This document shows positions 9,888 to 18,941 of a stretch of DNA of 64,000 nucleotides, one piece after another; position 1 is the first letter of the stretch; each line of letters starts with the position of its first letter. The notes beneath the pieces are model-generated. The model searched no databases. It had not been told where the DNA came from and saw only the letters and a program-made list of their open reading frames with translations. The DNA comes from Streptomyces sp. NBC_00483. GTDB taxonomy: Bacteria > Actinomycetota > Actinomycetes > Streptomycetales > Streptomycetaceae. The translations under genes were made by a program, and so were the position numbers. The stretch covers positions 4,712,001 to 4,776,000 of the forward strand of contig NZ_CP107880.1 in NCBI RefSeq assembly GCF_036013745.1. The letters run 5' to 3'.

Positions 9888-10343
9888 ATGAATGCGGACG
9901 ACGACGTCACACCGGACGAACTCGTGGGTGTCGTCGCGGCGATGGCCCGGTGGGGCGAGGACCTCTTCCACCCTGTGGAGGTGGAGCTGCGGTTCCGGCT
10001 GACGGATCCGCTGGCCGTCACGGTGACGGCCTGGGGCGGCGCGGAGGCGGGCGTCCCGGGGTCCGTGCTGTGGCCGCTGTCGCGGGACCTGCTCCTCGAC
10101 GGGCTCGAACGGGCGGCGGGCGACGGCGACGTACGCATCGCTCCCTATCGCGTCCCCGGCCGCGACCGGCTGGTCATCGTGGACCTGCGCAGCGCACCCG
10201 GCGAGCCCCAACTCGTCCTCGCGCACGACGCGTTGAGCCTGTTCCTCGACCGTACGGAGCGCATGCTGCCGGAGCGCGAGGGCCGCCTCGAAGGGCTCAT
10301 CGACCGCGCCCTACGAGAGCTGGCGCCGGGGGACGACACCTGA
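9888..10343 (+). CDS. SsgA-like sporulation/cell division protein (SALP)
   Basis: This 151-residue protein fits the SsgA-like family, small actinomycete proteins that guide septum placement and cell wall events during sporulation. Visible family features are VEVELRFRLTDPLAVTVTAW, the SVLWPLSRDLLLDGLERAAG segment, GDGDVRI and the late ALSLFLDRTERMLPEREG helix. SsgA itself is about 136 residues, so this is slightly longer at the N-terminus. The ATG at 9888 directly abuts the stop of a 43-codon frame starting at 9756 (TGAATG), which suggests coupling or read-in from upstream. It is probably controlled with the HTH gene before it. Confidence 0.82.
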   Translation: MNADDDVTPDELVGVVAAMARWGEDLFHPVEVELRFRLTDPLAVTVTAWGGAEAGVPGSVLWPLSRDLLLDGLERAAGDGDVRIAPYRVPGRDRLVIVDLRSAPGEPQLVLAHDALSLFLDRTERMLPEREGRLEGLIDRALRELAPGDDT

Positions 10344-10370: not shown

Positions 10371-10406
10371 CAGCGCCCGGAACGGCCGAAGCCGTCCCGG
10401 GCGCTG
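10371..10406. terminator. bidirectional hairpin between ssgA-like and chaplin genes
   Basis: A 16-bp stem with one mismatch (CAGCGCCCGG...CGGGCGCTG) closes on the tetraloop CGAA. It lies 27 bp after the SsgA-like stop and 24 bp from the 3' end of the convergent chaplin gene, so it can serve both. The plus strand carries GACAAAAA just before it, which gives a U-run for the minus-strand transcript. Confidence 0.8.
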
Positions 10407-10430
10407 CCCGTCCGAGCGCGAGCCAGGTGA

Positions 10431-10682
10431 CTAGCTGTTGGCGCAGACGTTGCCCGCCGCCGGGTTGAGCGCGGCGATCAGGTTGAGCGAGTTGCCACAG
10501 GCGTTGATCGGAACATCGACCGGAACCTGGATGATGTTTCCGGACAGCACGCCCGGGCTGTTCTGGGCCACACCGGTGGCGCTGGCGCCGTCGGGGCCGT
10601 CCACCGCGGAGGCCATGGCAGCGGATCCCATAACAGCGGTCCCGGCCAGCACGGCCGCGGCCGCGAAGGTGCGAAGACGCAT
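10431..10682 (-). CDS. short chaplin
   Basis: This 83-residue precursor has a signal peptide (about 1-27) and a single chaplin domain with GVAQNSPGVLSGN, IIQVPVDVPINACGN and AALNPAAGNVCAN. Chaplins are secreted amphipathic proteins that form amyloid-like fibrils at the air-water interface and coat aerial hyphae and spores. The short form lacks a wall-anchor region. Cysteines 62 and 80 are the conserved pair expected to form an intramolecular disulfide. The ATG at 10682 has a GGAGC site. It sits in a cluster with a second chaplin, three rodlins and a disulfide oxidase gene. Confidence 0.93.
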   Translation of the reverse strand: MRLRTFAAAAVLAGTAVMGSAAMASAVDGPDGASATGVAQNSPGVLSGNIIQVPVDVPINACGNSLNLIAALNPAAGNVCANS

Positions 10683-10777
10683 CGTTGCTCCCTAGAGAGG
10701 TGAGGGAATATGACGCGCCAATCACACCGCCACCCCGCCCCGAATCGGGACAATTGAGCCATCGGGGGGCGTGTCCG

Positions 10778-11425
10778 TCAGCTCGTCCAGAAATCCCACC
10801 AGCGGGTCAGGATCATCACGCCGACGACTCCGATGTGGGCGGCGGTCGGCACCCACGGGAAGTCCGTGAAGAAGGCCCGTACGCCCCGGGACGCCGGGAG
10901 GAAGCCGCTGCCGACGTTGAACGCGACCAGATGCCAGAACAGGGCGATGGTGGCCGCCCAGGCCAGGCAGCACCACAGGCACAGCGAGTTGATCCGGTAC
11001 AGCGACTGGAACTGCAGCCAGGTCACGAACCCGACGCCGAACAGCGCGCCCGCGTTGAAGGTCAGCCAGTACCAGCGGGGAAAGCGGACCCCGGTCAGCA
11101 GACTCACGCCGACGCCGGCCACGAGCCCGTAGGCGACGAGGCCGAGCAGCGGATTCGGGAAACCGAACGCGGCGGCCTGCTCGCTCTTCATGATGTTGCC
11201 GCAGGACACCACCGGGTTCAGGCTGCACCCGGGCGTGAAGTTCGGGTCCTCAAGGAGCTTGAACTTGTCGATGGTGATGACCCACGACGCGAGCACCCCG
11301 GCGGCGCCCGTGACGACGAGGAGCCAGGCGAGCGTCGTTGCGCCCCCGACGCGGGAGTCCGCTGTCGAACTTCCGGTGCCGCGGTGCCGGTTGACCGGTC
11401 GGTGCGCGGCAGGGGCGGTCGTCAC
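10778..11425 (-). CDS. vitamin K epoxide reductase (VKOR) family disulfide oxidase
   Basis: This 215-residue membrane protein has four to five hydrophobic segments and the four functional cysteines of bacterial VKOR: Cys67 and Cys75 in GCSLNPVVSCG, and the active-site pair Cys149-Cys152 in SLCLWCC. Bacterial VKOR reoxidises a DsbA-like thiol oxidase with quinone as acceptor, supporting disulfide formation outside the membrane. No thioredoxin domain is fused, so a separate partner is needed. The GTG at 11425 overlaps the upstream stop as GTGA, indicating translational coupling with the DUF5949 gene. Chaplins and rodlins around it carry cysteine pairs, so they are plausible clients; this link is inferred from position. 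Confidence 0.9.
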   Translation of the reverse strand: MTTAPAAHRPVNRHRGTGSSTADSRVGGATTLAWLLVVTGAAGVLASWVITIDKFKLLEDPNFTPGCSLNPVVSCGNIMKSEQAAAFGFPNPLLGLVAYGLVAGVGVSLLTGVRFPRWYWLTFNAGALFGVGFVTWLQFQSLYRINSLCLWCCLAWAATIALFWHLVAFNVGSGFLPASRGVRAFFTDFPWVPTAAHIGVVGVMILTRWWDFWTS

Positions 11426-11925
11426 GCGCGCACGCGCCGGATGGGCAGCAGGCAGTGCGCGGCGGCCATGAGGGTCTCCTCGTCGCCCGCGAACTCCTCC
11501 AACTCCTGCTCGGTGACCGGGGATCCCGGCGTCGCGGTGGGCCAGACGCGCGTGGTGAACAGGAAGTACGCGCTCTTGCGGGCCTCCGCCGCCGCCAGCC
11601 ACTCGGGCGGCACGGAGCACTGGGCGTTCAGGAGCGGCATGGTGACGACGGCCTGGCCCGCCTCGACCAGCAGGGACACCGGGAAGCTGGGGCGGCCCGA
11701 CGCGTCGTGGACGGTGGTGCCCACCGTGAGGCCGTTGGTCTCCAGGAGGCCGCGCACGGCCGCCTCCGACGCCTCGGGTCCTGCCGGGGAATCACCCATG
11801 GAGTAGGCGAGGAGAAAGGGAATGTCGCCCTTTCCATCGGGGTGTTCACCACTCCAGGCGATGACCGCCAGAGTTCCCAGATCGGCTGCTCGAAATGCGG
11901 GGCCACTGCTCACAGTTGAAGTCAT
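11422..11925 (-). CDS. DUF5949 family protein
   Basis: This 167-residue soluble protein matches the Streptomyces DUF5949 family as I remember it: DLGTLAVIAWSGEHPDGKGD and IPFLLAYSMGDSPAGPEASE near the start, PVSLLVEAGQAVVTMPLLNA in the middle and a final HCLLPIRRVRA. No catalytic motif or signal peptide is visible and the function is unknown. It overlaps the VKOR start by 4 bases (GTGA), so the two are one translational unit, which hints at a role linked to redox or secretion of the coat proteins (inference). Confidence 0.75.
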   Translation of the reverse strand: MTSTVSSGPAFRAADLGTLAVIAWSGEHPDGKGDIPFLLAYSMGDSPAGPEASEAAVRGLLETNGLTVGTTVHDASGRPSFPVSLLVEAGQAVVTMPLLNAQCSVPPEWLAAAEARKSAYFLFTTRVWPTATPGSPVTEQELEEFAGDEETLMAAAHCLLPIRRVRA

Positions 11926-12007
11926 CGAAGAAGCCTAGCCAGACCCGGTCGGCGCACCGGCCACGGTTCACACGTTTGGCGGAACGCATTCCGCGGACGA
12001 AATACCG

Positions 12008-12045
12008 AAGGCTGACCCGGGAACCCTGGGTCCCGAACCAGCCTT
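12008..12045. terminator. imperfect hairpin
   Basis: AAGGCTG at 12008-12014 pairs with CAGCCTT at the distal end, and an inner CGGGA pairs with TCCCG, with an unpaired bulge between. It lies downstream of the small secreted protein gene that ends at 12083 on the minus strand, so it may terminate that transcript. Confidence 0.5.
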
Positions 12046-12058
12046 CGACGAATGGCTC

Positions 12059-12084
12059 GACGTACGAACCTGACGTACGAACCT
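12059..12084. repeat. 13-bp tandem duplication at gene end
   Basis: GACGTACGAACCT is present twice head to tail (12059-12071 and 12072-12084). The second copy overlaps the stop codon of the minus-strand secreted protein gene, so the duplication happened at its 3' end without extending the protein. Confidence 0.8.
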
Positions 12085-12370
12085 ACTGACCGACGGGGAG
12101 ACCGCCGAGCATGCTGCCGGCGCCGGAGCCGGAGCCGCTCTCGTTCAGCCCGTCGACGGCGCCCTTGACGGTGCTGACGGCGCCCCCGTCGTTCTTCGGG
12201 TCGAGCAGGTTGCTGTCCACCGGCGAGACGTCCAGCGTCGGCTGGCTGGTGATCGTGTTCACCGCGCCGTTCAGGCTCATCGGAGTGAGGTCCGAGGCAA
12301 ATGCCGGAGCGGCGGCACCGACAATCGCCATCGATCCGGCGACAACGGCAGCGGTCTTCAGAACCTTCAT
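12083..12370 (-). CDS. small secreted protein of unknown function
   Basis: This 95-residue precursor has a clear signal peptide (MKVLKTAAVVAGSMAIVGAA, cleavage after AFA near residue 25). The mature chain of about 70 residues is rich in Ser, Asn, Val and Gly, with no cysteine, ending in SGSGAGSMLGGLPVGQ. I do not recognise the family. It is flanked by the VKOR-DUF5949 unit and a chaplin, so it is probably a component of or partner in the aerial surface layer. The ATG at 12370 follows GGAAGG. Its own hairpin regions on both sides suggest a separate transcript. Confidence 0.75.
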   Translation of the reverse strand: MKVLKTAAVVAGSMAIVGAAAPAFASDLTPMSLNGAVNTITSQPTLDVSPVDSNLLDPKNDGGAVSTVKGAVDGLNESGSGSGAGSMLGGLPVGQ

Positions 12371-12512
12371 TGTTTATGCCTTCCCTCGACAACTCGCGTC
12401 GTCGGTTTGGAAAATACGCTTCTGCTTGCTCAACGAGCGTCCCGACCTCGGGGTGTGCGTCATCGCGCCGAAACCCGAAGGATCCGCACACCCGAAACGG
12501 CCGCACAACGGA

Positions 12513-12541
12513 GCAGCCGCCCCTCGGGGAGGGGCGGCTGC
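12513..12541. terminator. hairpin downstream of chaplin
   Basis: A perfect 12-bp stem (GCAGCCGCCCCT paired with AGGGGCGGCTGC) has a 5-base loop. It lies 22 bp beyond the chaplin stop codon on the minus strand. Confidence 0.85.
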
Positions 12542-12562
12542 GGAAGAGTCGGGCTGGGCCCG

Positions 12563-12802
12563 TCAGTCGTTGGCGCAGGTGTTGCCGAACGCCGGGTTCA
12601 GCAGACCGATGACGTCAACGGTGTTGCCGCAGGCGTTGACCGGCACGTGCACGGGAACCTGCACGGTGTTGCCCGAGATCACGCCGGGGGAGTTGGTGGC
12701 AGCGCCCTGCGCGCCGGAGTCGGCGGCGGCGACGCCGGCCGAGCCGGCCATGGCAGCGGCGGCCATTGCGGAAAAGACGACTGCCTTCGCGGTACGCGAC
12801 AT
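12563..12802 (-). CDS. short chaplin
   Basis: This 79-residue precursor has a signal peptide (about 1-27, ending AGVAAA) and one chaplin domain: GAATNSPGVISGN, TVQVPVHVPVNACGN and VIGLLNPAFGNTCAND. Its size and sequence are those of ChpE/ChpH-type short chaplins. Cysteines 58 and 76 are the conserved pair. The ATG at 12802 has an AAGGAG site. It differs clearly from the chaplin at 10431-10682 in the mature part, so the two are not a recent duplication. Confidence 0.94.
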   Translation of the reverse strand: MSRTAKAVVFSAMAAAAMAGSAGVAAADSGAQGAATNSPGVISGNTVQVPVHVPVNACGNTVDVIGLLNPAFGNTCAND

Positions 12803-13109
12803 GAAGCATGCTCCTTGGAGGTCGTTCTGTTCGGCCAGCGCGGGTGCCTGGCACGTGGTGCAACGGGGCGGCCGTACAAGGGGTTGCGGCTCCGAACGGG
12901 TGACTGGCCGTCGCGGCGGCCCCTTTGGGGTGACGTCATGAGCGAACGGGTGAACCGGTTCTCGCGGGGCCGGAGGCCGGTGGTCCACTGGGGGCCGTCA
13001 TGAGATTGGCCGCGCCGCCTTCCTGTCAGCCGTCGGCTCCACGCCGTTGGGAGGGCGGCCCCCGACCCGGGCGCCCCGTGACTCCTCCGGCCCGGCGCCC
13101 CATGACAGA
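12803..13109. other. upstream region of chaplin gene, no gene seen
   Basis: The region between the chaplin start and the rodlin terminator contains the chaplin ribosome site and presumably its promoter. A short palindrome TGACGTCA lies near 12932. Open frames here have no recognisable domain. A regulator-bound leader for the developmental expression of the chaplin would be expected here. Confidence 0.45.
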
Positions 13110-13150
13110 GCTCGGGCCGCCGGCGAATGCGGAAAGCCGGCGGCCCGAGC
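13110..13150. terminator. strong hairpin downstream of first rodlin
   Basis: A perfect 15-bp stem (GCTCGGGCCGCCGGC with its complement at 13136-13150) encloses an 11-base loop. It lies 20 bp past the stop codon of the minus-strand rodlin. Confidence 0.85.
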
Positions 13151-13169
13151 CTTGTGTGCGTTCGGCTGA

Positions 13170-13580
13170 TCAGCCGTTGTGCACACCGTTTCCGGCGAGG
13201 ACCGGGATGTCACTCAGGATGTGCGAGAGCGGCTCGTCACCCTTGGCCTGGGTGGAGTTCTCGGTGCACTGCTGGTTCTGCGGGGCCGACAGGACCGGCA
13301 CGTCCTGGACCGCGACCGGCACGACGCCGACGAGCGAACCGACGTTGCCCTTGACGGGCAGGCCGACGCAGGGCTTGTTCAGGGAGCCCTGGACGAGACC
13401 GAGCTGCGGGCTCATGTCGCCCGCGGTGGTGGAGTTGCCGTACGTCTGCGACGAGCCGTTGCCGCTGGTCGAGGTCGTGCCGTGGTCGTCGCCGATGGCG
13501 AGCGCCTGCGGGGCGGCTGCGGCGGAGACGCCGACGACGGAGACGGCGACCGCTGCGGCGGCCATGGCCTTCTTGAGCAT
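13170..13580 (-). CDS. rodlin (first of three)
   Basis: This 136-residue precursor is a rodlin, the secreted protein that organises chaplin fibrils into the rodlet layer on aerial hyphae and spores. The signal peptide ends at PQALA near residue 28. Family features are [48 protein letters not shown] and [19 protein letters not shown]. The two cysteines (71 and 105) are shared with the other rodlins here. The ATG at 13580 (MLKKAM) follows AAAAGGA. It is divergent from the second rodlin across 281 bp, the known rdlA-rdlB arrangement. Confidence 0.95.
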
Positions 13581-13861
13581 GGTTCTGATTCCTTTTCTGA
13601 CGGGCACCGGTTACTGCACTGAGCGCAACTGCGGAGGGCGGAAATGGTTCCGCATATCCACCCGATCGGACAGACATCGAAACCCGGTCGAGCACCCGTG
13701 CCCCCGCCAAGCGGCCCGCACTGGCGCGATTTTCATTTCATCGACCCCGCGCCGTAATCGGAATCGATCGGAGCCACGTCCGAGTGAACGTGAGCAACCG
13801 ATGGCGAGCTGCGGAGTTGATACAAGTGCTCCCAGACGGAAATAAGAAGGGGAATTTCCTC

Positions 13862-14272
13862 ATGCTGAAGAAGGCCATGGCTGCCGCGGCGGCCACCGCT
13901 TCTCTCGTCGGTATCGCGGCCGCCGCCGCCCCGCAGGCCCTGGCCGTCGGCAACGACGGTGGGACCACGTCCGAGAGCGGCAACAACGCCTCGCAGACGT
14001 ACGGCAACTCCGCCACGTACGGCAACATGAGCCCGCAGATGGCGCTGATCCAGGGCTCCCTGAACAAGCCCTGCATCGGCCTGCCGGCCAAGGCCAACGT
14101 CGGCTCGCTCGTCGGCGTCGTGCCGGTCTCCGTCCAGGACATCCCGGTCCTGTCGGCGCCGCAGAACCAGCAGTGCACCGAGAACTCCACCCAGGCCAAG
14201 GGCGACGAGCCGCTCTCGCACATCCTGGAGGACATCCCGGTCCTGTCCGGCAACGGCACCGGCAACAACTGA
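13862..14272 (+). CDS. rodlin (second of three)
   Basis: This 136-residue rodlin precursor has a signal peptide ending at PQALA. The mature chain carries [54 protein letters not shown] and [14 protein letters not shown]. It is the most diverged of the three in the N-terminal mature part (Asn/Tyr/Met where the others have Ser/Ala/Leu). The ATG at 13862 follows an AAGAAGGGG site. The 13581-13861 region contains the divergent promoters and no gene. Confidence 0.95.
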
Positions 14273-14289
14273 GGATCCGTTGCATGAAT

Positions 14290-14312
14290 CGGGCCGCCGC
14301 TCCGGCGGCCCG
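14290..14312 (+). terminator. hairpin after second rodlin
   Basis: A 10-bp perfect stem (CGGGCCGCCG paired with CGGCGGCCCG) with a 3-base loop lies 17 bp after the stop codon, followed by TCTGCTGTT. Confidence 0.8.
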
Positions 14313-14534
14313 GTCTGCTGTTCCGGCGCCGGCCGGAAATTCAGGTAGCTGTACGAGCCTTTTGATCCGCTGCGTCCGGATGTTCGGGAGGTCGCGCACA
14401 GTGCCGAATTTCCTGCGAATGGCTCGCGCGGGAATGGTCCGAACGGGTTTCGGTCCGCAACTGCCCGGAATGCAATCCAGTTGACCACACGTAGCTCCGC
14501 ATCCGGAGCGCGCGTATCGAAAGGGAACCACCCC

Positions 14535-14942
14535 ATGAAGAAGCTCTTCGCAGCCGCCACGATCGCTGCCTCCGTCGCCGGCCTCTCCGCCGTGGCCGCC
14601 CCGCAGGCGCTCGCCATCGGCGACGACACCGGCACGACGTCCACCAGCGGCAACGGCTCGTCGCAGACGTACGGCAACTCCGCCACCGCCGGTGACATGA
14701 GCCCGCAGCTCGGTCTCGTCCAGGGCTCCCTGAACAAGCCCTGCGTCGGCCTGCCGGCCAAGGCCAACGTCGGTTCGCTCGTCGGCCTCGTGCCGGTCGC
14801 GGTCCAGGACATCCCGGTCCTGTCGGCCCCGCAGAACCAGCAGTGCACCGAGAACTCCACCCAGGCCAAGGGTGACGAGCCGCTCTCGCACATCCTGAGC
14901 GACATCCCGGTCCTCGCCGGGAACGGCACCGCGAACCACTGA
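14535..14942 (+). CDS. rodlin (third of three)
   Basis: This 135-residue rodlin precursor starts [16 protein letters not shown] and is cleaved after PQALA. Its mature N-terminal half ([35 protein letters not shown]) is nearly identical to the first rodlin. Its C-terminal DNA is nearly identical to the second rodlin over more than 100 bp, which suggests gene conversion between copies. Two rodlins are usual in Streptomyces, so the third is an expansion. The ATG at 14535 follows AAGGGAA. It has its own upstream region of 222 bp after the previous terminator. Confidence 0.95.
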
Positions 14943-14950
14943 ACGGACTG

Positions 14951-14982
14951 AGGGGCGGTCGCCGGTACGCGCGACCGCCCCT
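14951..14982. terminator. hairpin after third rodlin
   Basis: A perfect 12-bp stem (AGGGGCGGTCGC with GCGACCGCCCCT) has an 8-base loop, 8 bp after the rodlin stop codon. Confidence 0.88.
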
Positions 14983-15013
14983 CTCCGTACGGTGTTCCGT
15001 ACGCCAGGCATGA

Positions 15014-15049
15014 CAAAGGCGGTGGACCGGGATCGGTCCACCGCCTTTG
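15014..15049. terminator. bidirectional hairpin between convergent genes
   Basis: A perfect 15-bp stem (CAAAGGCGGTGGACC and its complement at 15035-15049) has a 6-base loop. It sits between the third rodlin and the convergent secreted protein gene ending at 15069. On the minus strand it ends the secreted protein transcript. Confidence 0.88.
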
Positions 15050-15068
15050 GCGTGTGTTCTTGCGTCGG

Positions 15069-15341
15069 CTACTGGATCGCGGGGAGGAGGCCGGTGACCG
15101 GCGCCACGAGGTCGGTGGCCTGGTGCAGTTCGTTCAGGTGGTTGAGCCCGTTGAGCCCGGAGAGCTGTTCCGCGGTGCTGGGGAGCTGTGCCTGCTGGTC
15201 CTCCGGGATCGCCATCGCTGTCAGCGAGTCGACGGTTCCAGTGGGGGAGATGGGTTCGACGGCGTGGGCCGCGGGGGTGGCGGCCGCCGCGGCTCCGACG
15301 GCGAGGAGGACGGCGCTGAGGGCACGACGAGTTGAGATCAT
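15069..15341 (-). CDS. small secreted protein of unknown function
   Basis: This 90-residue precursor has a signal peptide (MISTRRALSAVLLAVGAAAA, cleavage near AHA, about residue 27). The acidic, leucine- and asparagine-rich mature chain contains TAEQLSGLNGLNHLNELHQA and ends in TDLVAPVTGLLPAIQ. There is no cysteine. I do not recognise a named family. It closes the coat cluster on the right, convergent to a rodlin, and may be another surface-layer component. The ATG at 15341 has only a weak ribosome site. Confidence 0.72.
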   Translation of the reverse strand: MISTRRALSAVLLAVGAAAAATPAAHAVEPISPTGTVDSLTAMAIPEDQQAQLPSTAEQLSGLNGLNHLNELHQATDLVAPVTGLLPAIQ

Positions 15342-15448: not shown

Positions 15449-18400
15449 CTACGCCTCGGGGCTCTGCCCTGGACCCCGCGAGTCTCGTCCCGGAGCGGGG
15501 CTTGATTTTCCGGGGCCAGCCGAAGGTGAAGGACCGCCGGGGCTTGCATTGCCAGGGCCCGCCGGAAGCGCTGAAGCGGTGAGTAGCGTGTGGACCTCTT
15601 GGGCTCTGCGGAGGCCCGCCGGGTAGGGGAGGGCTTGGGCCAGGTGGGTTGCGTGGGTCAGGGCTTGGGCGGACTCGGTGGGGGCGAAGAGGTGGGACAG
15701 GGCGGCCGCGTGGGCCAGGTGGGCCTCCACCTCGGCCAGGCGTTCGCCGGTTTGTGCGGCGCGGGTGGCTTCCGCTGTCGCGAGTTCCAGGGCGAGGCGG
15801 GGGCGGCCCGCGTGGAGTTGGGCCCAGGCCGTCAGGGACGGCGCGGCGTCGGGGCAGTCGGCGAGGGCGCGGAGGGCGGCCTCGGGGTGGCCGGTGCGCA
15901 GGGCGAGTTCGGCGCGGGCGGTGCCGACCTCGTAGCGCGCCTGGCGGTCGCCCAGGTGGTCGGCGGCGGGGGCGGCGCGGTCCAGGAGCTCCGCGGCCGC
16001 CGACGTGTCTCCGGTACGGAGCCGGACCAGCGCCAGCGTCGCGAGCGCGTACGGCAGGCACCAGGCGCCGTCGCCCTCCGCGAGCGCCACGGATGCCTCG
16101 GCGAGTGCGGTGGCCTCGTCGAACTCCTCCAGCAGGAGATGGAGTTCGGCGAGGTTGAGGCGCTCGAAGGAGGCCGCCGTCGGGTTTCCCGAGCGGTCGG
16201 CGAGGTCGAGGGCGCGTTCGCCGCTCGCCACCGCCTCACGCAGCCGGCCGTGGCGGCGCGCGTTCTCCCGCAGGGTGGAGAGGACCGTGCCGAGCAGCGT
16301 CGGGTCGCCGTACGCCTCGGCCGGGGCGAGCGCGAGGTCGCCGGCCTCGCGGGCCTCGGTGAGCCGGCCCGAGAGGCCCAGGTTGGTGGCCTGGAGGGCG
16401 TAGGAGCGGGCGAGCAGGCCCTGGCCGTGCGGGCCGGGGACCTGTCGCGCGGCGTCCAGGGCCCGGCGGGCGGCGGCGTAACCGTCGTCGTAACTGCCCC
16501 GGACGCCGTGCAGCATGGCGTGGGACAGGTGGTGCACGGCGAGGGGTTCGGGGGCGGCTTCCGGGGCGGCCGGGTGGGCGCGGAGCGCGTCGGCGGCGGC
16601 GTCGAGGGCGCCGGTGCGCACGAGGGACTCGGCGAGCCGGGCCGCCGTGAGCACCGCGTCGTCGTGTGCGCCGCGCCGGACGAACTCGGTCAGGGCCTCG
16701 CGCAGTGACGCGGCGGCCTCTTCGAAGTGGCCCATTCTGGCCAGGACCTGGCTGTGGGCCAGGCGGGCGCGGGCCGCGTCGACGTCGAGGCGGGCGACGA
16801 GGTCGCGGTAGTAGCGGTCGGCGGTGTCGTTGGCGTAGAGGGCGGCGGCGCGTTCGGCGGCGCGGCGCAGGTACTCGGCGGCGCGCGGGTCGTCGGCGCG
16901 GGCGAAGTGCGAGGCGAGTGCGTCGACGGCGTCGGGGCGGCGGGCGAGGACGGCCCGCGCGAACGCGCCGTGCAGCTGCCTGCGGCGGACCGCGGTCAGC
17001 CGCTCGTAGCAGGTGAGGCGGACCAGCGGGTGCCGGAAGGCGAGCCCCGGTTCGGGCCGCCCGGCCACCACGACCTGGCGCTCCTCCACCAGCGAGGCCG
17101 CGATGGCCCGTTCGACCCCGTCGGCGGCCGCGGCCCCGGTCACCGGCGGATGCAGGCCGCGCTCGGCGACGTCGAGGAGTTCGGAAAGGGCCGCCTCTCC
17201 CCCGGCCACGGACAGCGCCTCGACCAGGCGCCGCGCGTCGGGGTCGAGGCGCACGAGCCGGTCCGCCACCAGCTCCCGCACACCCTGGGGCGCTCCGGCG
17301 CCGGCCGGTCCCTCGGCCGGGCCACGGGCGAGTTCGAGGGCGAACAGCGGGTTGCCGAGGGAGAGTTCCCACACCCGCTGTTCCTGCCCGGGACGTGGCG
17401 CCGCGTCCCGCGCCACCGCGAGGCACGCCTCCCGGTCGAGCAGCCCCAACTCCTCGCGTACAGCGAGCCGTTGACGTACCAGGAAGCTCAGGATGGCGCG
17501 CCGTGCGTCGTCGTCGGGAAGTTCCTCCTCGCGGTACGTCACCAGGAAGCGCAGCCGGATCCCGCGGTCCGCGGCGCGGCGGGCGAGGTGGCTCATGAGC
17601 TGGTACGAGCCGGTGTCGGCGGCGTGCAGGTCGTCGAGGACGGCGAGCACCGGACGGGCGGCGGCCAGGTCACCGAGAAGCGCGGCGCTCGCCCGGAACA
17701 ACCGGTCGCGTTCCTCCTCGGGGCTGCGTTCGCCGGATGTGCGGATCTGGCCCAAGGACGGGAGGAACACGGCCAGTTCGGGATACTCGGCGCCGACCCG
17801 GGCCCGCTCCGCCGCGTCGTGCTCGGCCAGCCACCCGTCGAGCGCCTCCGCGAACGCCCCGTACGGCGTGTGCCCCTCCGCGTCCTGACCGCCACCCCAC
17901 AGCACGGCCGTGCCGGAGGCCGCGGCCCGCCGCGCCACCTCGCCCACCAGGCGCGTCTTGCCGACGCCCGCCTCGCCGGTGAGCAGCGTGACCGGCGGCC
18001 CCTCGGCGGCGAGCAGCCGGTCGAGCACCGCGTCGCGGCCGTGCAGCGGGGTGGCGGGTGCGGCTCGCAGCGGCGACGGCAACGTTGTCGTGATCGGCAC
18101 CGGGGCGGGCGCCGCCGCGAGGGCCGCCCGGTGCAGCTGCTCCGTTTCGGGACCGGGGCGGACGCCCAGTTCGGCGTCGAGCGCCTCGCGGCACGCGTGG
18201 TACTGGTGCAGCGCGCGCCGCCGCAGGCCCTGGCGCAGGGAGGCGTCGATGAGGACGCGGTGGGCCAGCTCCTCGGCGGGGCTGGTGGCGAGGACCTGCT
18301 GGGCCACGGCCGCCGCGTCCGTTGCCGAGCCCGCCGCGAGGTGCGCCTCGGCGAGGCCGAGCAGCAGCCGTTCCCGCAGCAGCGCGAGCCGCCCGCGGCG

Positions 18401-18910
18401 CTCATCGGCCCAGTCCACGTACCGGTCCTCGGGGAGCAGTTCGCCGGTGAACAGGGCGAGGGCGGCGGCCAGTTCGGCCACCGCTGCCCCCTCCTCGACC
18501 ACCGCCTCGGTGAGCGCCGCCTCCGCCGCCGTCTCCGCCGCGTCGGCGTCGATCCATACGGTCGCCGGGTCGAGGAGGAGCATGCCGCCGTCGGACAGGA
18601 GGTACGACGACGCGGCGCGCGGGGCGAGTTCGGGTTCCAGCGCGTGGCGCGCGGCGTGCAGGGCGACGCGCAGGCTGCCCGCGGCGGCGGACGGGTCGGC
18701 GTCGGGCCAGCAGCTGTCCATGGCCTGCTCGCGGTGGAGGCGGTGGCCGGGCACGACGGCGAGCAGCTTCACCAGGGCGCGGGCGCCGGGGCGCGGCCAG
18801 CGTTCGGCGAGCGGGGGTCCGGTGTCACGGGTCGCGCTGAACCCACCGAGAAGGCGCAGACGCAGCAGTGGAGCGGCGGGTTCCGTCCCGTTCGTCTGAC
18901 GTGTGCTCAT
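15449..18910 (-). CDS. large SARP-type regulator (BTAD, NTPase, TPR)
   Basis: This 1153-residue protein resembles AfsR-type large regulators. The N-terminal part (about 15-250) has an OmpR-like winged helix (LRLRLLGGFSATRD, HRLHREQAMDSCWPDADPSA) and a bacterial transcriptional activation domain (RVLIDASLRQGLRRRALHQY). A P-loop NTPase follows with Walker A GEAGVGKT near residue 315 and a Walker B-like VLAVLDDLHAAD. The C-terminal half is alanine-rich helical repeats of TPR type. Such proteins activate specialised metabolism or development; no target is evident here, although the coat cluster is adjacent. The ATG at 18910 is chosen; an in-frame GTG at 18934 is possible. The Pro/Gly/Ser-rich tail derives from an intergenic repeat. 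Confidence 0.85.
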   Translation of the reverse strand: MSTRQTNGTEPAAPLLRLRLLGGFSATRDTGPPLAERWPRPGARALVKLLAVVPGHRLHREQAMDSCWPDADPSAAAGSLRVALHAARHALEPELAPRAASSYLLSDGGMLLLDPATVWIDADAAETAAEAALTEAVVEEGAAVAELAAALALFTGELLPEDRYVDWADERRGRLALLRERLLLGLAEAHLAAGSATDAAAVAQQVLATSPAEELAHRVLIDASLRQGLRRRALHQYHACREALDAELGVRPGPETEQLHRAALAAAPAPVPITTTLPSPLRAAPATPLHGRDAVLDRLLAAEGPPVTLLTGEAGVGKTRLVGEVARRAAASGTAVLWGGGQDAEGHTPYGAFAEALDGWLAEHDAAERARVGAEYPELAVFLPSLGQIRTSGERSPEEERDRLFRASAALLGDLAAARPVLAVLDDLHAADTGSYQLMSHLARRAADRGIRLRFLVTYREEELPDDDARRAILSFLVRQRLAVREELGLLDREACLAVARDAAPRPGQEQRVWELSLGNPLFALELARGPAEGPAGAGAPQGVRELVADRLVRLDPDARRLVEALSVAGGEAALSELLDVAERGLHPPVTGAAAADGVERAIAASLVEERQVVVAGRPEPGLAFRHPLVRLTCYERLTAVRRRQLHGAFARAVLARRPDAVDALASHFARADDPRAAEYLRRAAERAAALYANDTADRYYRDLVARLDVDAARARLAHSQVLARMGHFEEAAASLREALTEFVRRGAHDDAVLTAARLAESLVRTGALDAAADALRAHPAAPEAAPEPLAVHHLSHAMLHGVRGSYDDGYAAARRALDAARQVPGPHGQGLLARSYALQATNLGLSGRLTEAREAGDLALAPAEAYGDPTLLGTVLSTLRENARRHGRLREAVASGERALDLADRSGNPTAASFERLNLAELHLLLEEFDEATALAEASVALAEGDGAWCLPYALATLALVRLRTGDTSAAAELLDRAAPAADHLGDRQARYEVGTARAELALRTGHPEAALRALADCPDAAPSLTAWAQLHAGRPRLALELATAEATRAAQTGERLAEVEAHLAHAAALSHLFAPTESAQALTHATHLAQALPYPAGLRRAQEVHTLLTASALPAGPGNASPGGPSPSAGPGKSSPAPGRDSRGPGQSPEA
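15456..15506 (+). repeat. degenerate copy of Streptomyces GC-rich interspersed repeat
   Basis: The sequence CGGGGCTCTGCCCTGGACCC, followed by a changed middle and a final GGGGCTTGATTTT, matches the repeat copies at 40184, 53679 and 59657 imperfectly. It overlaps the last codons and lies just inside the stop of the minus-strand SARP gene, so the C-terminal tail of that protein is encoded by the repeat. Confidence 0.6.
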
Positions 18911-18941
18911 GAAGGCGACACTGTAACCGAGCACGCCATGA

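Follow-up and report, generated by a model that had tools for sequence, protein, structure and literature searches.

In Streptomyces sp. NBC_00483, a gene for a membrane oxidase of the VKOR family lies, coupled to a DUF5949 gene, among the chaplin and rodlin genes of a coat locus, which encode the hydrophobic layer around aerial filaments. Of 101 Streptomyces genomes, the source genome included, 35 have a VKOR gene no more than 7 kb from a chaplin or rodlin gene. The locus was studied in a stretch of 64,000 nucleotides (contig NZ_CP107880.1, positions 4,712,001–4,776,000; hereafter ‘the window’, whose own numbering is used below). We lean slightly towards reading the coat-locus VKOR as a spare general envelope oxidase with developmental timing, which would be carried in a DUF5949–VKOR operon of the coat locus. 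The VKOR–coat linkage is wider than the single window showed, and DUF5949 is marked out as a conserved coat-locus gene.

The coat locus (10431–15341) holds two chaplins, three rodlins, two small secreted-looking proteins, VKOR and DUF5949. The original prediction, made from the letters alone, had named this gene set, and profile matches and translations recovered all of it (Table 1), with the start at 10431 rather than at 10371; the GTGA coupling of DUF5949 to VKOR that it described is a real 4-base overlap (offset −4). A near-twin locus (L011), with a VKOR 99% identical, is found in Streptomyces sp. NBC_01016.

VKOR genes recur at coat loci

Among the 101 genomes, chaplins were found in all 101, VKOR in 98 and DUF5949 in 70. 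The 98 genomes hold 163 VKOR copies, leaving 65 extra copies, 35 of which lie at coat loci; this enrichment was looked at for coat neighbourhoods only. Each of the 35 coat-VKOR genomes has at least one further VKOR. Of the other VKORs in these genomes, 45 in all, 39 served as a control (38 regions, some ending at contig ends, and the second VKOR of the source genome), and none of them had a chaplin or rodlin gene within about 9 kb; the six outside this control belong to G011 (four), G024 and G098 (one each). At the non-coat loci, the usual VKOR is flanked by rarA (33/38), hisS (32/38) and a cyclophilin gene (31/38), and this rarA–hisS type is presumably SCO1507 of S. coelicolor.

The source genome is a single contig of 10.24 Mb with two VKORs, one DUF5949, three rodlins and eight chaplin domains. 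Because the genes have so few copies in the genome, and because the arrangement recurs in others, we regard it as beyond chance. A survey across Streptomyces genomes for VKOR–DUF5949 near coat genes had been proposed with the original prediction, and the association was borne out: 25 of the 35 coat-VKOR genomes have VKOR, DUF5949 and a chaplin in one locus, and the remaining 10 have VKOR beside a rodlin or chaplin with no DUF5949 in the locus (in 7 of the 10, DUF5949 is about 25 kb off on the same contig).

A search with the VKOR sequence gave 541 confirmed relatives in GTDB genomes. The best 80 of these loci, taken with up to 10 kb on each side (some ending at contig ends) and scanned with profiles from the window and genome proteins, included 15 with chaplins and 65 with neither chaplin nor rodlin; these named loci share organisms with the 101 genomes (for example, S. 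fructofermentans), and the counts overlap. Twelve VKORs from genomes without a DUF5949 match (L236–L247) had no chaplins or rodlins nearby, and four of the 12 loci carried a gene resembling s4, one of the small secreted-looking proteins of the window.

We tabulated 80 coat-gene loci (named and unnamed, with some organisms twice), of which 50 have a VKOR. The steady companions in these 50 are chaplins, together with s4 in all but L285, which is a contig of 6.5 kb. Tyrosinase genes lie nearby in 31 of the 50, a further 17 have rodlins without tyrosinase, and 2 have neither. That the coat-locus VKOR serves melC-type tyrosinase genes, and not the coat proteins, is very improbable in our estimation: the 31 loci with such a gene within 6 kb of a coat gene speak for it, but none was found there in the other 19, the window included, and tyrosinase also occurs at 11 of 30 coat loci that lack a full VKOR.

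As an observation in its own right, a tyrosinase gene is near coat genes in 42 of the 80 tabulated loci (41 or 42 of them rodlin-less or mixed; for example, 11848–12714 in L059), so that coat genes and melanin-type genes lie side by side.

DUF5949 at coat loci with and without VKOR

DUF5949 was near chaplins or rodlins in 55 of 70 genomes, counting the window; among the remaining 15, one gene is on a contig of 3 kb. DUF5949 is a steadier coat-locus gene than VKOR. In a sister genus (g7), where 19 genomes have a match, a chaplin was found within the 1.5 kb flank in 15 of 17 DUF5949 loci. Where DUF5949 and VKOR are paired, the stop of the former overlaps the start of the latter (−4/−1) in 28 of 43 pairs, a few organisms being counted twice; the nearest VKOR start is at +16 to +19 in L161, L168, L174, L179, L180 and L191.

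Structure prediction for DUF5949 gave a compact alpha/beta protein (mean predicted local distance difference test score of 85 for the best of five models), and the predicted model had no convincing match to a known fold. A literature search on DUF5949 turned up no text. It may be the weightier half of the pair.

Sites upstream of DUF5949 and the coat genes

The BldM–WhiI Group II motif is given as TGnnCCGnnCGGGTGA (PMC4125116). At least 10 of its 12 positions were matched upstream of DUF5949 in 58 of 69 genomes, mostly 38–45 bp before the start; these genomes share ancestry, and the 58 are not 58 independent cases. The same level was reached by 147 of 3,000 background stretches drawn from the same loci, and the highest count for 150 permuted motifs before DUF5949 was 15. 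At a threshold of at least 12 of 14 positions, the Group I palindrome was found upstream of DUF5949 in 39 of 69 genomes, against 21 of the 3,000 background stretches. These promoter counts cover DUF5949 matches of 300 bp or more.

At coat loci that include VKOR, the BldM-type site precedes 23 of 25 DUF5949 genes. Six of seven further Streptomyces loci, counted after removal of the repeats L299 and L310, reach 10/12, five of them at about −43; so do all of 14 named loci, whose organisms overlap the first set, with 13 at about −43 and L011 as the exception. Two VKORs have neither DUF5949 nor chaplins in the locus and yet carry a BldM-type site: in L244 it is 43 bp upstream of a candidate start, as though VKOR had acquired the DUF5949 promoter, and in L238 it is farther upstream.

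Chaplin and rodlin genes commonly carry another type of promoter. For sigma-BldN we used the consensus CG[TC]AAC-N16/17-CGTTGA, with a threshold of at least 10 of 12 positions (background 2.6%). Such a promoter precedes 43% of the 195 chaplin domains and 65% of the 88 rodlins, compared with 2 of 66 DUF5949, 0 of 49 VKOR and 4 of 74 s4 genes. Judged by these upstream sequences, DUF5949 and VKOR appear to lie outside the promoter group common before chaplins and rodlins. In the window, sigma-BldN-like promoters precede the chaplin at 12563–12802 (10/12 at −57) and the rodlins at 13170–13580 (9/12 at −44), 13862–14272 (9/12 at −41) and 14535–14942 (10/12 at −50); the best match before the chaplin at 10431–10682 was 7/12, with none above background. 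Sigma-BldN is described as directing bldM, chaplin and rodlin genes (PMC4125116), and its control of chaplins and rodlins is also given in PMC4255298.

We consider it somewhat unlikely that DUF5949 is the true coat-locus gene and VKOR a passenger behind its promoter, kept as a mildly useful second oxidase with the coat proteins as no special clients. The steadiness of DUF5949 near chaplins and rodlins with or without VKOR (the 55 of 70 genomes, and the 15 of 17 g7 loci, which are without VKOR) would fit such an arrangement, as would the L244 and L238 VKORs and the lack of any alignment column setting coat VKORs apart. It accounts less well for the 10 genomes in which VKOR stays beside rodlins or chaplins without DUF5949 there, or for L190, where VKOR sits between two rodlins.

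Origins of the coat-locus VKOR copies

The four catalytic-cysteine columns (a loop pair and CxxC) hold cysteine in all 46 coat and all 77 non-coat VKORs, and alignment of coat with other VKORs gave no diagnostic column separating them. Trees were built from VKOR matches of 450 bp or more, free of X and of stops. With 35 coat and 37 rarA-linked VKORs, the tree contains six changes, at least four of which are forced by well-supported branches. A single clade of coat VKORs was rejected (P = 1.85e-7, approximately unbiased (AU) test). Mapped on a tree of DUF5949 from 69 genomes, the coat VKOR switches between present and absent 11 times, at least six of these on supported branches. In 529 of 561 genome pairs, the coat VKORs resemble each other less than the rarA-type copies do.

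In one genome (G043), the two VKOR copies (L150, 10129–10728; L263, 8969–9568) share a 600 bp stretch at 99.5% identity, and the regions around them do not match otherwise, a pattern that looks like gene conversion. Several origins in the tree, taken with this pair, suggest that VKOR copies have been overwritten by gene conversion or recruited anew. Since coat VKORs appear to have arisen or been overwritten more than once, the linkage might have no function at all, chaplin loci being duplication-prone places where gene copies pile up. We think this improbable, because 35 of 65 extra VKORs are concentrated in a single short region, many of them at an identical junction where the reading frames overlap, and their catalytic cysteines are intact.

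Proposed role of the coat-locus VKOR

In Streptomyces, the SCO1507-type VKOR is reported to be activated by CutRS, and, in bacteria lacking DsbB, the recycling of a DsbA-like protein is attributed to VKOR (PMC10433416). We propose that the coat-locus VKOR would be an intact spare of this actinobacterial envelope oxidase, which is present elsewhere in the genome, and that the DUF5949–VKOR pair would form a small developmental operon within the chaplin/rodlin locus. BldM or BldM–WhiI would turn on the operon through the DUF5949 promoter, with translation of VKOR coupled to that of DUF5949, and the added enzyme would raise oxidising capacity in aerial hyphae, probably as an extra oxidase for the time of coat formation. 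It would reoxidise a DsbA-like thioredoxin encoded elsewhere and pass the electrons to menaquinone; the thioredoxin, in turn, may oxidise newly exported two-cysteine proteins, among them chaplins, rodlins where present, and others.

A more far-reaching version is tentative and, to our minds, probably too strong: that this is a second, development-specific module for oxidative folding, in which BldM/WhiI would switch on DUF5949 and a spare VKOR. The latter would have been derived repeatedly from the housekeeping gene, either by conversion or by recruitment, and would oxidise chaplins and rodlins during their export from aerial hyphae.

Compared with the SCO1507-type enzyme (PMC10433416), the coat-locus protein is of the same family, with the same DsbA-like recycling proposed, but is encoded by a second gene in a coat locus, usually coupled to DUF5949 and with a BldM-type site in relatives. 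A VKOR/DsbB phylogeny (PMC4555120) had already recorded that Streptomyces sp. Mg1 has two non-identical VKOR homologues; its available text gives no gene neighbourhood for them. MdbA-dependent pilus folding in Actinomyces oris (PMC5478893) is likewise a case of actinobacterial, menaquinone-tied envelope oxidation serving a surface structure; there, general electron transport is tied to MdbA, and the available text makes no mention of another VKOR at the pilus locus. The chaplin and rodlin coat loci described previously (PMC5618241, PMC4255298) share their structural proteins with the present locus and are controlled by sigma-BldN in S. venezuelae; the available text of those accounts mentions neither VKOR nor DUF5949.

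ChpH needs both of its cysteines in vivo, whereas chaplin cysteines do not matter for fibrils in vitro (PMC5618241, PMC5618249); in the available text of these studies, the route by which the bonds are made is left unanswered. A coat-locus VKOR, with another elsewhere in the genome and a developmental site before its partner gene in relatives, provides a concrete gene for this question.

A number of results weigh against the role proposed here. The original prediction had taken two cysteines in both chaplins and all three rodlins as a sign of a need for oxidation; the counts themselves were confirmed from the translations, but they do not distinguish loci with a local oxidase. Two cysteines were found in 89 of 92 chaplin domains at VKOR-bearing loci compared with 66 of 67 at VKOR-less loci, and in 28 of 29 compared with 48 of 48 rodlins, whereas all 59 s4 proteins have none. 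(L151 and L152, affected by a contig end and a masked stretch and both among the VKOR-less rows of the tyrosinase table, were left out.) Two cysteines are thus the norm of the chaplin and rodlin families at coat loci and give no reason to expect a local VKOR. Reduced chaplin F, moreover, still makes fibrils in vitro (PMC5618249).

Nor is the gene always there. A local VKOR is missing from 28 of 63 counted coat loci, which were reached through DUF5949 or VKOR and not through all chaplins; as every coat-VKOR genome also has another VKOR, the local copy is not obligatory for coat folding. None of the 17 g7 DUF5949 loci has a VKOR, including three widened to 10.5 kb. Coat-VKOR genomes have more chaplins (median 11 versus 8), but chaplin number showed no trend with the coat VKOR in independent pairs, a comparison of little power. 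The window contains no DsbA-like gene, so that the redox partner would have to come from elsewhere, and five Thioredoxin_4 matches lie elsewhere in the genome.

The upstream sites are likewise not exclusive. Where a coat locus lacks VKOR, 21 of 30 DUF5949 genes are preceded by a BldM-type site, as are 14 of 14 that lie away from coat genes; the site goes with DUF5949 wherever that gene is located, which slightly lowers our confidence in the favoured reading. The Group II motif also exceeds background at rodlins (20/83) and chaplins (26/161). It was found at 9 of 86 VKORs, six of the nine not at coat loci, and at 4 of 65 s4 genes. For the 10 VKORs that adjoin rodlins at loci lacking DUF5949, no site at 10/12 was found within 170 bp, and in g7 the site is weak, 8 of 17 reaching 10/12 and only 2 at the usual position. 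The window site is itself degenerate, with 9/12 at −42, where most relatives have 10–12/12 at about −43 and about 1% of random sequence reaches 9/12 at eight fixed offsets; regulation by BldM at this locus is thus argued from relatives.

The dedicated folding step for the coat that was originally envisaged is in part retained: the oxidase gene is clustered with the coat genes and is probably developmentally timed, but the cysteine argument and the notion of an obligatory step are given up.

Features of the window locus and its surroundings

Rodlins were called with the NF041022 equivalog (cut-off 75), and the signal peptides of s4 and s7 were judged by eye; neither s4 nor s7 matched a Pfam or NCBIfam family above its cut-off.

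Table 1. Genes and candidate sites of the coat locus and the adjoining gene, in window coordinates
Feature	Position	Strand	Basis
SsgA-like sporulation/cell-division protein, adjoining locus	9888–10343	+	PF04686, 71.9 bits
Short chaplin, 83 amino acids, two cysteines, single ChpA-C domain	10431–10682	−	PF03777, 82.2 bits; translation
VKOR-family membrane oxidase, 215 amino acids	10778–11425	−	PF07884, 140.5 bits (cut-off 27.5)
VKOR cysteines: loop pair (GCSLNPVVSCG) and CLWC	within 10778–11425	−	translation
DUF5949 protein, 167 amino acids, 4-base overlap with VKOR start	11422–11925	−	PF19374, 252.3 bits (cut-off 22.7)
Degenerate candidate BldM/BldM–WhiI-like site, TCCGCCAAACGTGTGA	11968–11983	−	9/12 positions; ends 42 bp upstream of DUF5949 start
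s4, small secreted-looking protein, 95 amino acids, no cysteine	12083–12370	−	homologues in most coat loci
Short chaplin, 79 amino acids, two cysteines, single ChpA-C domain	12563–12802	−	PF03777, 101.5 bits
Rodlin, 136 amino acids, two cysteines	13170–13580	−	NF041022, 226.6 bits
Rodlin, 136 amino acids, two cysteines	13862–14272	+	NF041022, 225.7 bits
Rodlin, 135 amino acids, two cysteines	14535–14942	+	NF041022, 217.7 bits
s7, small secreted-looking protein, 90 amino acids, no cysteine	15069–15341	−	translation

The s4 family has its own promoter of extracytoplasmic function (ECF) type, GTTTCC-N14/15-TCGTT(A/G), in 54 of 65 loci; the s4 gene of the window lacks it. The same promoter type was found at 16 of 161 chaplins and at none of 83 rodlins, 71 DUF5949 genes or 86 VKORs.

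VKOR is absent from the other chaplin loci of the source genome (0.82, 2.57 and 2.76 Mb). Outside the window, 2755012–2755641 encodes two chaplin domains without cysteine, ChpE-like in that respect. Adjoining the coat locus within the window, 15449–18934 encodes a large regulator with BTAD, AAA and TPR regions.

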